NCBI GenBank assembly: GCA_026982395.1
Contig: JALSHD010000019.1
Span: forward strand, 1-32,356
Length of the DNA: 32,356 nt
Direction of reading: 5' to 3'
DNA from: Chromatiales bacterium
Lineage (GTDB): Bacteria > Pseudomonadota > Gammaproteobacteria > Thiohalospirales > Thiohalospiraceae
The translations under genes and the position numbers were made by a program. The notes beneath the pieces were generated by a model. The model had not been told where the DNA came from. It ran no database searches and was given only the letters and a program-made list of their open reading frames with translations. Positions within the stretch are counted from its first letter, which is position 1; each line of letters opens with the position of its first letter. Shown here in pieces: positions 16,079 to 31,474 of this stretch.

Positions 16079-16142
16079 GGGCATCTCTGAAAATAGTGAT
16101 TTTTCGCTAGAGCAAGGAAGCTCCGTGCATTGTATTGAGGTG
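16079..16142. repeat. Shrunken copy of the MITE found at 30127-30363
   Basis: GGGCATCTCTGAAAATAGTG and the next 32 or so bases align closely to the left 52 bp of the element at 30127 (shared TGAAAATAGT, ATTTTTC and GAGCAAGGAAGC). The far side ends in TTGAGGTG, matching the right end of the full element except for its last three bases. About 170 bp of the interior are missing. It fills the gap between two convergent genes, and GAAAAT/ATTTTTC can form a small stem. Confidence 0.6.
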
Positions 16143-27200: not shown

Positions 27201-29165
27201 TTATCTCCTCACCGCCCCGAGCAATGAATCAAACATGCTTTGAGCCGTGCTGATAACCTGAGCCGAAGCCTGGTAGGCCTGCTGAAAGCGCATCATGTTG
27301 GCCGCCTCTTCATCTAGGTTGACGCCGGAAACAGCCTCCCGCGCATTCACTGCCTGACGCAACAGCGTCTGCTGCGCCTGATTGGCAATATCGGCCTGGT
27401 GGGTTTTGGTCCCCACATCAGTAATGATGCCGGCATAGGCATCCAGAAAACTGGCCGCTCCTTCCAGCATGCTGTTTTTGGTCTGCAACTCGGCGAGGGT
27501 AAGCATGTTGCTGTTATCACTTACCCCCTGAGCATTGTATTCGACGCTGAACCTGTCCCCCAGACCGGGTTCACCCTTGATGTGCAGCTCATATCCATAA
27601 CCCAGTGCGTTATCCGCCACCACATCCATACCGGTTGCCGGATCATAGACATTGGGCCCTGAGAGCAGCACCGGAGGACCCGGCAGCGTATTGTCGTAAA
27701 CGTTGTACTGATTCGGAGTCACTGCATCAAACTCGACCAGCAGTGGAGGCGTCAAGGTTCCGGGCGTTGTGGTAAATTCTGCCCCCGAGGTATCGGAAAG
27801 CTTGCTCAGTGCCGCCTGACCGCTACCGATATTGGCCAGGTCAGACTCCACCCGTACCGGACTGGCCGCCGCAATTTTTGCCGTATCGGTAATCAACACC
27901 TCCAGGGAGCGCGCCATTCCGCGGGTCGGACGGATAAGAAAGGAGTCCCCCGCCGCTGGAGGGCCAGCGCTGACATCGATGCTGAAACCATCGGCAGCGG
28001 TAAACGGCAACCCGGCAATCGGCCCCTCTCCCTGACCGTCAGACATCCGGGTCAAGGTGTAATTTGCCCCATCAAATGTCAATCTGTAATCGCTGTTGCT
28101 GAGCAGATTGGGATCAGTGATGGTCGCACTGATGCTCGCAGCGGAGCTGTTGTTGGTACTTGCCAGAACTTGCGGCGCACCCACCGCAAAAAAATCCCCC
28201 CCCAGGGAAGAGTTGAGGTCCATGCCAAGACGGTGCTGTTTGTTAAACGTATCACTCAGGGCAACGGCAATCCGGCCCAGTGAATTTTCACTTGGGGCAA
28301 TAATATCGTTTCGCTGATCAATCAGGCCGCCCAGCCTCCCTCCTGTCAGCAGCGAGGTGATATTTACCGTTGAGGTTCCATTGGCATAGCCAATATCCAT
28401 CTGACTGGAGTCATATGAATTGGGAATCACGCTCAGCTCCTGGCTCTCGGTATCCGTCACCAGACTCTGGCCGTTGCCGATATAGACATTAACGGTAAAA
28501 TTATCCTGCTCCACCGTCTGTACATTGACAAACCGGGAGAGCTGCAATACCAGCTGGTCACGCTTGTCCATCAGGTCATTGGGCATACGCCCGTTGTGAA
28601 TGCCGGGTGAACGGGAGATAGCCGTATTGAGCGAGGCGATCTCCCGCGCCAGGCTGTTAATCTCGGGAACAATATTGCTGACCTCGATATTGACACTGTC
28701 CCGCAGATCATTCATTCGCCGCGACATCACATCAAAACGGTTGGCCAGACTCTCCGCCGAGGTCAACATAACCTGCCGTGCCGGAATTGAAGCGGGATCA
28801 TTTGCCACACCCTGGCTTGCCGCAAAAAAATCCTGCAGCGCCGGAGTCAGCCCCGCCTGGGGATCGGCAAGCAGATTGTCCATCTGTGATGCATAGTTAT
28901 AAGAGACTTCCAGCTGATTACTCAGCGTGGTATTGGAAACCACCTGCCCATTGAGAAACGAATCATAGACACGGCTGATGTTGGTGACGTTGGAACCTGC
29001 CCCGAGATATCCCCCGGCAGAGTAAACCGGTACCCGGCTGCTGATATCGGTACGCTGGCGGGAGTATCCTTCGGTATTGGCGTTGCTGACATTATTACTG
29101 GTAACCGTCAGGGAGCGCTGCGCCGTCAACAGGCCGGATATACCTATATTTAATGGGTCACTCAT
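27201..29165 (-). CDS. flgK: Flagellar hook-associated protein 1 (HAP1)
   Basis: This 654-aa protein has the FlgK N terminus (LNIGISGLLTAQRSLTVTSN, NVSNANTEGYSRQR) shared with rod, hook and HAP proteins. A long variable central domain follows. The C-terminal helix is conserved (GVNLDEEAANMMRFQQAYQ, ASAQVISTAQSMFDSLLGAV). FlgK forms the junction next to the hook. Its length is above the E. coli protein (about 547 aa), the extra being in the central domain. It overlaps flgJ by 4 bp and precedes flgL by 3 bp. Confidence 0.96.
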   Translation of the reverse strand: MSDPLNIGISGLLTAQRSLTVTSNNVSNANTEGYSRQRTDISSRVPVYSAGGYLGAGSNVTNISRVYDSFLNGQVVSNTTLSNQLEVSYNYASQMDNLLADPQAGLTPALQDFFAASQGVANDPASIPARQVMLTSAESLANRFDVMSRRMNDLRDSVNIEVSNIVPEINSLAREIASLNTAISRSPGIHNGRMPNDLMDKRDQLVLQLSRFVNVQTVEQDNFTVNVYIGNGQSLVTDTESQELSVIPNSYDSSQMDIGYANGTSTVNITSLLTGGRLGGLIDQRNDIIAPSENSLGRIAVALSDTFNKQHRLGMDLNSSLGGDFFAVGAPQVLASTNNSSAASISATITDPNLLSNSDYRLTFDGANYTLTRMSDGQGEGPIAGLPFTAADGFSIDVSAGPPAAGDSFLIRPTRGMARSLEVLITDTAKIAAASPVRVESDLANIGSGQAALSKLSDTSGAEFTTTPGTLTPPLLVEFDAVTPNQYNVYDNTLPGPPVLLSGPNVYDPATGMDVVADNALGYGYELHIKGEPGLGDRFSVEYNAQGVSDNSNMLTLAELQTKNSMLEGAASFLDAYAGIITDVGTKTHQADIANQAQQTLLRQAVNAREAVSGVNLDEEAANMMRFQQAYQASAQVISTAQSMFDSLLGAVRR

Positions 29166-30124
29166 TTATCATCTCCCGCAAGCGCAACTTCATAAGACAA
29201 TATCGGATCGGAAGCAGAAAACTTTACTGCATCCACGGCACTCGCCATAACCCGGCCATCCAGAATTCGTTGAATCTTGGCTGCATAGTGAGGATCTGTT
29301 GCGTAACCGGCCTTGTGCAAAGCCGTTACAAAGGCTGCATCATTGTCCGTTTTTTGCAACGCCTCTCCATAGCGAGGATTGGTCCGCAAAAAATTGACGT
29401 AGTCTGAAAAGCTCTCGGCATAACTGTCGTAGACACGAAATGCCGCACGCTGTTTGACCATGGCACCGTTGATATACTCCAGCGTACTGACACCCGCCTT
29501 CTCTCCCTTCCAGCGGCGATCGGCCTTGATATTGAACAGGTTGTGACTGCTGATACCTGGCTCCATCTGGATGATTTTTTTCCCCCATCCCGTCTCCAGT
29601 GCGGCTTGGGCCAGCAGAACCTCCGGGCTGACCCCCAGGTCAGCTGCCGCCTTGCTGGCTCCAGGCCAAAGGTGTTTTACAAAATCGGTCGGCGAATCAA
29701 ACTTCAACGGCTGTCGAGACTGCCGGATCCCGGTTACCGGTTCATTGACCACAGGCGAGATCGCACGCAGTGAAAGCCGGTCCGGCACGGAATAGCTACC
29801 ATCGGAAACTGCCTCCTTTTTCTGCGGTAACTGCTTGCCCAACTGCTGTACCAGCATATCGGCAATCCCCATGCCCCCTTTGTGAGCCAGATCGACAGAG
29901 AGCTGTTTGTCATGCATGTCGCGATAAAAATCCATCTGCTGACTGCCAAACAGAGGGTCGCCAAAACTACTCTCCTGCACACTTTTCAACATCATCTGCA
30001 AAAAGAGAGCTTCAAACTGCTGCGCAACAATATTCAGCGCCTTGCCGGAGTCCTTCCGCGTCAGACTGCGCAATCTGGACAGTCCCTGCAGATCGGTGTA
30101 AACATCAGGTGGCGTTGAAATCAT
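29162..30124 (-). CDS. flgJ: Flagellar rod assembly protein / peptidoglycan hydrolase FlgJ
   Basis: This 320-aa protein has the N-terminal rod-binding domain (VAQQFEALFLQMMLKSVQES, MHDKQLSVDLAHKGGMGIAD) and a C-terminal glucosaminidase domain. The catalytic glutamate is E178 in LLAQAALETGWGKK, and SHNLFNIKADRRW and a YATDPHYAAKI segment follow. It caps the growing rod and locally cuts peptidoglycan. The start is set at ATG 30124 (MISTPPDVYTD). The frame stays open further upstream only because it reads through the MITE-like element. That element's end supplies the GAGGTG in front of this start. Confidence 0.95.
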   Translation of the reverse strand: MISTPPDVYTDLQGLSRLRSLTRKDSGKALNIVAQQFEALFLQMMLKSVQESSFGDPLFGSQQMDFYRDMHDKQLSVDLAHKGGMGIADMLVQQLGKQLPQKKEAVSDGSYSVPDRLSLRAISPVVNEPVTGIRQSRQPLKFDSPTDFVKHLWPGASKAAADLGVSPEVLLAQAALETGWGKKIIQMEPGISSHNLFNIKADRRWKGEKAGVSTLEYINGAMVKQRAAFRVYDSYAESFSDYVNFLRTNPRYGEALQKTDNDAAFVTALHKAGYATDPHYAAKIQRILDGRVMASAVDAVKFSASDPILSYEVALAGDDK

Positions 30125-30126
30125 TA

Positions 30127-30363
30127 GGGCACCTCTGAAAATAGTAATTTTTCTGCGAGAGCAAGGAAGCACCGCGCGCACGACTGCATGGACGCAGGAG
30201 GTACGAGTCCATGGATGGACGAGGTAGAACGAAGCAGGAAGCCAGAGTCGAGAGCAATGTATGGAGCAATTGCCGGGAACCGCAGTGTATAGGGGATACA
30301 TGAGGATTCGAGCACGGAGCTGACGCCGCTATCGCTGAAAAAGTGCATTTTTTTGAGGTGCCC
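30127..30363. mobile_element. 237-bp MITE-like element in the flgI/flgJ junction
   Basis: The ends read GGGCACCTCTGAAAAT (left) and, in reverse complement, GGGCACCTCAAAAAAATG (right), so 9 bp are perfectly inverted and the next bases are A-rich on both sides. ATTA flanks the element on both sides (30123-30126 and 30364-30367), a target duplication. No transposase or other gene fits inside, so it is non-autonomous. The ends resemble IS5-type termini, but the parent family is not certain. A shrunken relative is at 16079-16142. Confidence 0.75.
30130..30135 (-). promoter_or_regulatory. Shine-Dalgarno of flgJ formed by the element terminus
   Basis: Read leftward, the terminal repeat gives GAGGTG followed by CCCTA and the flgJ ATG. 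This is a strong anti-SD match with 5-nt spacing, and it lies wholly inside the inserted element. Confidence 0.65.
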
Positions 30364-30364
30364 A

Positions 30365-31474
30365 TTAGATGATCACCAGCTCGGCACGCAACGCCCCGGC
30401 ACTGCGCAAGCCTTCCAGAATCGCCACCAAATCACCCGGCGCAGCCCCGACGCGGTTTACCGCCTGCACCAGGGAATCCAGCGAAACTCCCGGGTCAAAC
30501 AGGAACATGCGTTTCCCTTCCCGGGTAATCTCCACTTCAGAAGCCGGCGTCACCGCCGTCCTGCCACCGGACAGGGCACCCGGCTGACTCACCTGCGGAT
30601 TTTCCCGAATGGTAACGATCAGATTGCCGTGCGAAATTGCCGCAGGTGTCAGACGAACATTCTTGCCGATAACCACCGTTCCGGTACGCGAATTGATAAT
30701 CACTTTTGCCGCCGCTTCATCCGGCACAACCTGAATGTTCTCCAGCATCGACAGATAGGAGACCCTTTGACCGACATCGAGCGGAGCACTCACAACTACC
30801 GAAGTGGCATCCTGCGCCGTAGCGGTACCCGCCCCCATGGTTTCATTTATCGCCTTGGCCAGGCGGTGTGCGGTAGTAAAGTCCGGGCGATTCAAATTGA
30901 AAATCAGGCTGTTGCCGCGGGCAAACGCCGTTGGCACCTCGCGCTCCACCGACGCACCGTTGGGAATCCTGCCTGCACTGGGGATATTGATCATGATCCG
31001 GGAACCATCCTGCCCATCAGCTCCCAGCCCGCCGACCACCATATTCCCTTGTGCAATGGCATAAATATTACCGTCTGCCCCCCGCAGTGGCGTCATCAAC
31101 AGTGTTCCACCCCGAAGACTTTTGGCATTCCCGATAGATGAGACGGTTACATCGATGGTCTGGCCTGGTTTGGCAAATGGAGGAAGATCCGCATGCACAC
31201 TTACCGCCGCAACATTCTTCAACTGCAGCGTCTGATTGGCCGGCAAAGTAATACCAAACTGGGACATCATGGATTTCAGGCTCTGCGCAGTAAAAGGCGC
31301 CTGACTGGTCTGGTCCCCCGTGCCGCTCAAGCCGACCACCAGCCCGTAACCGATCAGCTGATTACTGCGCACGCCAGCTACTGATGCAATATCCTTGACC
31401 CGCTCGGCGCTCACCGGCGCACTCAACAAAACCGCAGCACAAAAAAACACCCGCAAAAAGTTATGAGCCGTCAT
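30365..31474 (-). CDS. flgI: Flagellar P-ring protein FlgI
   Basis: This 369-aa protein has a signal peptide (cleavage likely after SAPVSA), the conserved start [33 protein letters not shown], then FGITLPANQ and the long P-ring body. It ends [20 protein letters not shown] plus LVII. FlgI assembles the periplasmic P ring around the rod. The GAAGGTAA sequence upstream supports the start. It is the first gene here of the leftward unit: flgH is not directly upstream, and a divergent gene begins instead. Its TAA stop lies in the ATTA duplication at the element's edge. Confidence 0.96.

Follow-up and report, generated by a model that had tools for sequence, protein, structure and literature searches.

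A MITE terminal repeat as candidate Shine–Dalgarno sequence of flgJ at the flgI–flgJ junction of a Chromatiales bacterium

The element between flgI and flgJ and its relatives

The window, that is, the whole stretch of 32,356 nt analysed here (contig JALSHD010000019.1 of the Chromatiales assembly GCA_026982395.1), harbors flgI and flgJ on its minus strand, both of them intact despite the insertion of a 237-bp element between them (Table 1). Read along the minus strand, the end of flgI (...CTGGTGATCATC TAA TG) leads into the element, which runs over 237 bp from GGGCACCTC to GAGGTGCCC and is followed by TAATGATTTC..., the start of flgJ; the border between element and flgJ reads ...TTTTCAGAGGTGCCCTAATGATTTC.... 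The 9-nt ends (GGGCACCTC) are perfect at both termini and absent elsewhere in the window, the inverted arms extend over 36 nt at 78% identity, and the element is flanked by ATTA/ATTA on the plus strand, which corresponds to TAAT on the minus strand. In the two nearest congeners the site is empty, and the flgI stop and flgJ start share 1 nt (TAGTG, TGATG). We thereby show that the element entered a TAATG overlap of flgI and flgJ and duplicated TAAT, which left TAATG on each of its sides.

Table 1. Positions of the genes, the element and the predicted features at the flgI–flgJ junction, numbered along the window
Feature	Position	Strand	Evidence
flgJ, 320 aa, rod-binding and glucosaminidase domains	29162..30124	-	
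Bridging open frame 1, 86 aa; ATG overlaps flgI stop (TAATG)	30105..30365	-	predicted
Target duplication TAAT, flgJ side; includes AT of flgJ ATG	30123..30126	-	sequence
Bridging open frame 2, 74 aa; ...GAG GTG CCC TAA, stop overlaps flgJ ATG (TAATG)	30124..30348	-	predicted
MITE, non-autonomous IS5-family, 237 bp, between flgI and flgJ	30127..30363	-	terminal inverted repeats, 4-bp duplication, multicopy, empty congener site, shared ends
Downstream terminal repeat, toward flgJ (GAGGTGCCC)	30127..30135	-	sequence
GAGGTG, candidate SD of flgJ, 5 nt before ATG	30130..30135	-	sequence; predicted duplex -9.5 kcal/mol
Upstream terminal repeat (GGGCACCTC), complementary to downstream end	30355..30363	-	sequence; pairing predicted
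Target duplication TAAT, flgI side; includes flgI stop TAA	30364..30367	-	sequence
flgI, 369 aa; stop TAA within target duplication	30365..31474	-	
GGTGATC, native SD-like site in flgI end, now ~240 nt from flgJ	30371..30377	-	sequence; congener conservation

The element is not a chance motif, because the 237-bp unit is repeated in the genome bin, where it gave 49 alignments and where near-exact ends number 69, whereas the reversed control gave 1. Our catalogue for the source genome comprises 64 copies or lone ends (about 60 relatives of the flgI–flgJ element), although near-identical copies on two contigs (C38 and C52) may be a single locus. The copies range from 85 to 243 bp, with size classes near 237, 140 and 85 bp, and an exact 4-bp duplication borders 18 two-ended copies. 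In a class-wide search, the same end was present in 15 of 274 gammaproteobacterial genomes, in dozens of copies in some; the target duplication is constantly 4 bp long, with both sides identical at flgJ and around 78 two-ended copies. The flgI–flgJ element encodes no transposase. Identical 16-nt ends flank a 346-aa IS5-family transposase (NF033581, E 6e-80) in a 1254-bp element of another genome, a decayed 1149-bp relative with the duplication ATAA is found in a congener, and elements of ~1.24 and ~1.29 kb with the same type of ends and the duplication TTAA occur in other genomes. Judged by its sequence, the flgI–flgJ element is an IS5-type MITE.

No transposase able to move the MITE was found in the source genome bin, which appears fragmented (193 contigs) and may be incomplete. 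The PF01609 genes of the source genome were rejected as parent transposase, being without MITE ends, as was a further transposase (L225) that has no match in the source genome. Rfam gave no match above threshold for the element. Elsewhere in the window, a decayed lone end of the family lies at 16079-16128 on the minus strand, 1 nt past the stop of a 1062-nt gene, and a 33-bp near-perfect palindrome in the source genome (L089, G000:C17:17557-17589) consists almost entirely of two MITE ends (GGGCACCTCCAAAAAAGTACTTTTGAGGTGTCC). Element positions 113-162, in its middle, resemble a 48-50-bp unit, matched in two genomes (G020, G033), which stands alone, and is sometimes tandemly repeated, in other families within the class. 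The flgI–flgJ junction of other gammaproteobacteria (L114, L117, L142, L143, L154) holds other, unrelated-looking inserts of 131-430 nt, palindromic or repeat-flanked; in L142 and L154 the insert contains an ORF between GGGGCTAGGGG-type repeats.

Start and stop codons beside element ends

On the minus strand, GAGGTG (30135-30130) is separated by the 5-nt spacer CCCTA from the flgJ ATG (30124-30122). Its predicted duplex with the canonical anti-Shine–Dalgarno sequence (-9.5 kcal/mol) is in the top 8% among 190 genes from the source genome; the canonical anti-SD was assumed because no 16S rRNA gene was detected in the genome bin. Taken alone, a 6-nt SD match is weak evidence. When the element is removed, the joined flanks read CTGGTGATCATCTAATG, in which GGTGATC stands 5 nt ahead of the ATG with a predicted -14.5 kcal/mol, and GGTGAT is kept at the flgI–flgJ junction in the two congeners. 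Since the empty junction already had this strong SD-like site in flgI, the element appears to have swapped one SD for another. A second case of a native SD replaced by an element end is, from the sequence comparison, that of obgE in the source genome, where the end of a 115-bp element gives GAGGTGCTCTGAGT-ATG and where congeners have GGTGATC beside the ATG; the sequence directly upstream of this element (L076, G000:C75) resembles a group II intron 3′ end. The orientation of insertion does not matter, since GAGGTGCCC is read outward from either inverted end. The proposal of the first-pass annotation that the terminal repeat gives flgJ a well-spaced SD match is thus borne out, with obgE as a putative second example. 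Its description of the native junction was right in that there is no spacer, stop and start overlapping by 1 nt, but not in leaving the start to coupling, as a native SD is present and the junction did not rely on coupling alone.

The same annotation had asked whether copies are enriched just upstream of start codons. Genes were called with a home-made hexamer model that ignores SDs, a window of 0-8 nt from element end to start codon was fixed before other genomes were examined, and null expectations were drawn from the sequence flanking the copies. In the source genome alone the expected bias did not appear (2 of 64 copies versus 2.2-2.4 expected). In the 11 other genomes, a start lies 0-8 nt past the end in 16 of 157 elements against ~5 expected (P=5e-5), mainly owing to G121 (8 vs 2.35) and G123 (5 vs 1.44), with no start-codon enrichment in G169. 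Pooling the 12 genomes gives 18 of 221 against 7.0 (P=2.6e-4) when the null is weighted for the 16-nt target motif, so that the positional bias holds at this level. The target motif as the entire cause of the start bias was rejected under this null; it explains part of it. The distances from end to start comprise 18 cases at 0-8 nt, none at 9-12 nt and 43 at 13-48 nt, and the gap at 9-12 nt (P=0.008, spotted after seeing the data) fits two tolerated situations, one in which the end provides the SD and one in which the native SD is retained. Of the 18 start-proximal ends, 17 retain GAGG, compared with 274 of the 366 other ends (P=0.04), whereas exact GAGGTG is not significantly more retained at start-proximal ends; both comparisons involve one end per element chosen as near-exact, and copies in other genomes were found via near-exact ends, which biases end conservation.

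The enrichment at stop codons is stronger than that at start codons (39 vs 5.5; 18 vs 7.0). A stop codon lies within the target duplication in 39 of the 221 elements (G000 and L265-L449) when 5.5 are expected, and the distances from stop to element end peak sharply at 0 and 1 nt. The target motif is palindromic, C-TTAA-G, and accounts for only about a twofold rise. The stop preference contributes to the start effect. Gene truncation as the origin of the stop peak is unlikely, the cut frames ending at least 12 nt inside the element. The frames of several genes do continue into the element and terminate within its first 12 nt (GGG CAC CTC TAA), which means that the ends also give stops to 3′-cut genes; across all copies, frames end at -12 and -19 relative to the elements.

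Rather than in ordinary leaders, the start-proximal copies mostly sit in tight co-directional junctions. In 13 of 17 start-proximal copies, a co-directional stop lies no more than 20 nt from the far end, versus ~10% of equivalent sites, and junctions of at most 30 nt hold 19 of 135 elements when 2.5 are expected, the junction and far-end tests, like those of the gap and of the bridging frames, having been chosen after viewing the data. Those flanking genes that matched a family are intact or extend beyond the fetched stretch. Many of them form pairs of known partners (queE-queC, fabH-fabD, pth-ychF, tusD-tusC, a branched-chain permease pair and an ABC ATPase-permease pair) and others are mere neighbours, e.g. 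valS-cysE. The tight-junction excess suggests that related elements can reside within operons and leave these active.

RNA folding, translational coupling and competing explanations

In the predicted fold of the read-through RNA, GAGGTG forms base pairs with GGGCACCTC of the opposite end. The predicted accessibility of the SD in this RNA is 0.00 at flgJ and has a median of ~0 over the 18 start-proximal cases, compared with 0.42 in other genes. Removing the far arm raises the median to 0.30 and the value at flgJ to 0.16. When a ribosome is placed on the upstream stop, the predicted accessibility is 0.23-0.39 where that stop is at most 2 nt from the element, and the flgJ SD, closed in the read-through RNA, is accordingly predicted to be partly open when a ribosome is at the flgI stop. 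With a predicted accessibility near zero, a ribosome would have to open the SD, and an explanation based on GAGGTG would therefore rest on coupling. Two open frames bridge the element at flgJ, the first of which crosses it and reaches 20 nt into flgJ in a different reading frame. Over the set of relatives, 12 of the 19 tight junctions contain bridging frames, compared with 98 of the 274 control directions (P=0.018, in a test chosen afterwards). The suggestion that element ends act as portable SD sequences draws support from the start excess across 12 genomes but is too simple as it stands, GAGGTG being predicted to pair with the other end and the bias being mainly toward operon junctions and stop codons.

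The sequences show that an IS5-family MITE landed at the TAAT of the flgI–flgJ stop/start overlap and duplicated it, that the insertion displaced the native flgJ SD, located in the end of flgI, to a distance of ~240 nt, and that the terminal repeat placed GAGGTG, a strong SD match, where its spacing to the flgJ ATG is suitable. We propose that translation of flgJ starts from GAGGTG, which ribosomes coming from flgI would render usable by either of two routes: a ribosome ending flgI may immediately restart on an element-crossing frame, unfold the hairpin and terminate at the flgJ start, or it may open the upstream arm directly. SD-bearing ends would let related copies persist in tight junctions, where most insertions presumably remove the next SD. 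That the MITE replaced the flgJ SD with its own end, made usable through coupling, and that this lets its kin persist in junctions, seems to us just about probable. A wider claim, held more tentatively, is that of a widespread gammaproteobacterial IS5/MITE lineage adapted to operons, with ends serving as mobile translation-start modules; such a lineage would carry GAGGTG in its ends, settle at stops and starts, and maintain coupling by its hairpin or by a bridging frame.

The SD geometry might instead be a by-product of target choice, flgJ being reinitiated from flgI or from a frame of the element and GAGGTG doing little. If the element favours C-TTAA-G-like sites and stops, then an insertion at TAATG necessarily puts an end beside a start, and flgJ itself sits at TAATG. 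The C-TTAA-G motif and the sharp stop peak (39 vs 5.5) are what such a choice would produce, an ATG 2 nt past the end is common (36 ends, only 7 of them called starts), and bridging frames could in principle work without an SD. However, the start excess survives the 16-nt motif null (18 vs 7.0), under which it also persists when the 2-nt distance is excluded (11 vs 5.2, P=0.016), and it remains when insertions at stops are left out (11 of 127, P=0.003). Moreover, the native SD is missing at the flgJ and obgE starts, so that a replacement would be needed. We therefore regard target choice as the whole explanation as rather unlikely.

The predicted accessibility, which is 0.00 at flgJ and near 0 in the median of the 18 cases but 0.42 in other genes, could also mean that the insertion harms flgJ expression, the SD being locked in a hairpin and little FlgJ being made, a situation either tolerated or recent and to be lost. 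Yet flgJ and flgI are intact, the same arrangement precedes obgE, tsaD and fabD, genes usually needed for growth or fitness, and tight junctions are enriched rather than avoided, all of which makes harm improbable. A promoter within the element would give a transcript without the upstream arm, in which GAGGTG is free, and the predicted accessibility indeed rises without the far arm (median 0.30). It does so to just 0.16 at flgJ, however, and no sigma-70-like promoter toward flgJ was seen inside the element in a simple scan for such sites, which leaves an internal promoter as a very remote prospect.

Mobile elements bring promoters, terminators and RNA-processing sites to their surroundings. 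If our preferred reading, that an element end can replace a ribosome-binding site, is true, it would explain how insertions survive in tight operon junctions, and would constitute a second, independent answer, beside that of the mycobacterial interspersed repetitive units (MIRUs), to how repeats invade translationally coupled genes. Since many natural junctions of housekeeping gene pairs carry such elements, a simple test is possible.

Comparison with known mobile repeats

A literature search that covered few subscription papers gave no match for the end sequence and no SD supplied by a MITE end. The element resembles IS5-family MITEs and their parent IS in having the 16-nt ends of the NF033581 element and a 4-bp duplication without a transposase. 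We know of no description of the IS5 family that includes a strong preference for stop codons or tight junctions or a role as SD, nor, to our knowledge, has an SD or a stop/start preference been noted for the Chunjie MITE of Geobacter uraniireducens. Chunjie is similar in size (235 vs 237 bp) and multicopy, and, according to a title cited in PMC10969869, one copy sits inside an operon that it does not disturb. The ends of MITEAba12 and of Correia-type elements alter the expression of neighbours (PMC6382973, PMC10969869), but they act via promoters, IHF sites or RNase cleavage and not via translation initiation. ERIC, RU-1 and related enterobacterial repeats are transcribed, intergenic and hairpin-folding, and it has been argued that a ribosome-induced change in the structure of ERIC RNA influences the neighbouring mRNA (PMC2229807); the reported effect is, however, on RNA cleavage or stability and not SD supply, and the ends differ.

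The nearest parallel is with MIRUs, short mobile repeats that insert at start codons of translationally coupled genes and whose internal ORF is coupled to the downstream gene via a small stop/start overlap (PMC12548453). Similarly, the flgI–flgJ element sits at a coupled stop/start junction (TAATG), and 19 of 135 of its kin are in tight junctions versus 2.5 expected. The two frames predicted at flgJ, which would bridge to or past the downstream start, may be counterparts of the MIRU ORF. We classed the element as MIRU-like in its working and not as a MIRU, since with IS5-type ends kinship is unlikely. It differs in being an IS5-type MITE, with inverted termini and a 4-bp target duplication, and in belonging to gammaproteobacteria, and its family has bridging frames in only 12 of 19 tight junctions. 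Unlike in MIRUs, the ends of the present MITE themselves match the anti-SD. The flgI–flgJ arrangement fits the RNA-unfolding model reviewed in PMC12548453.
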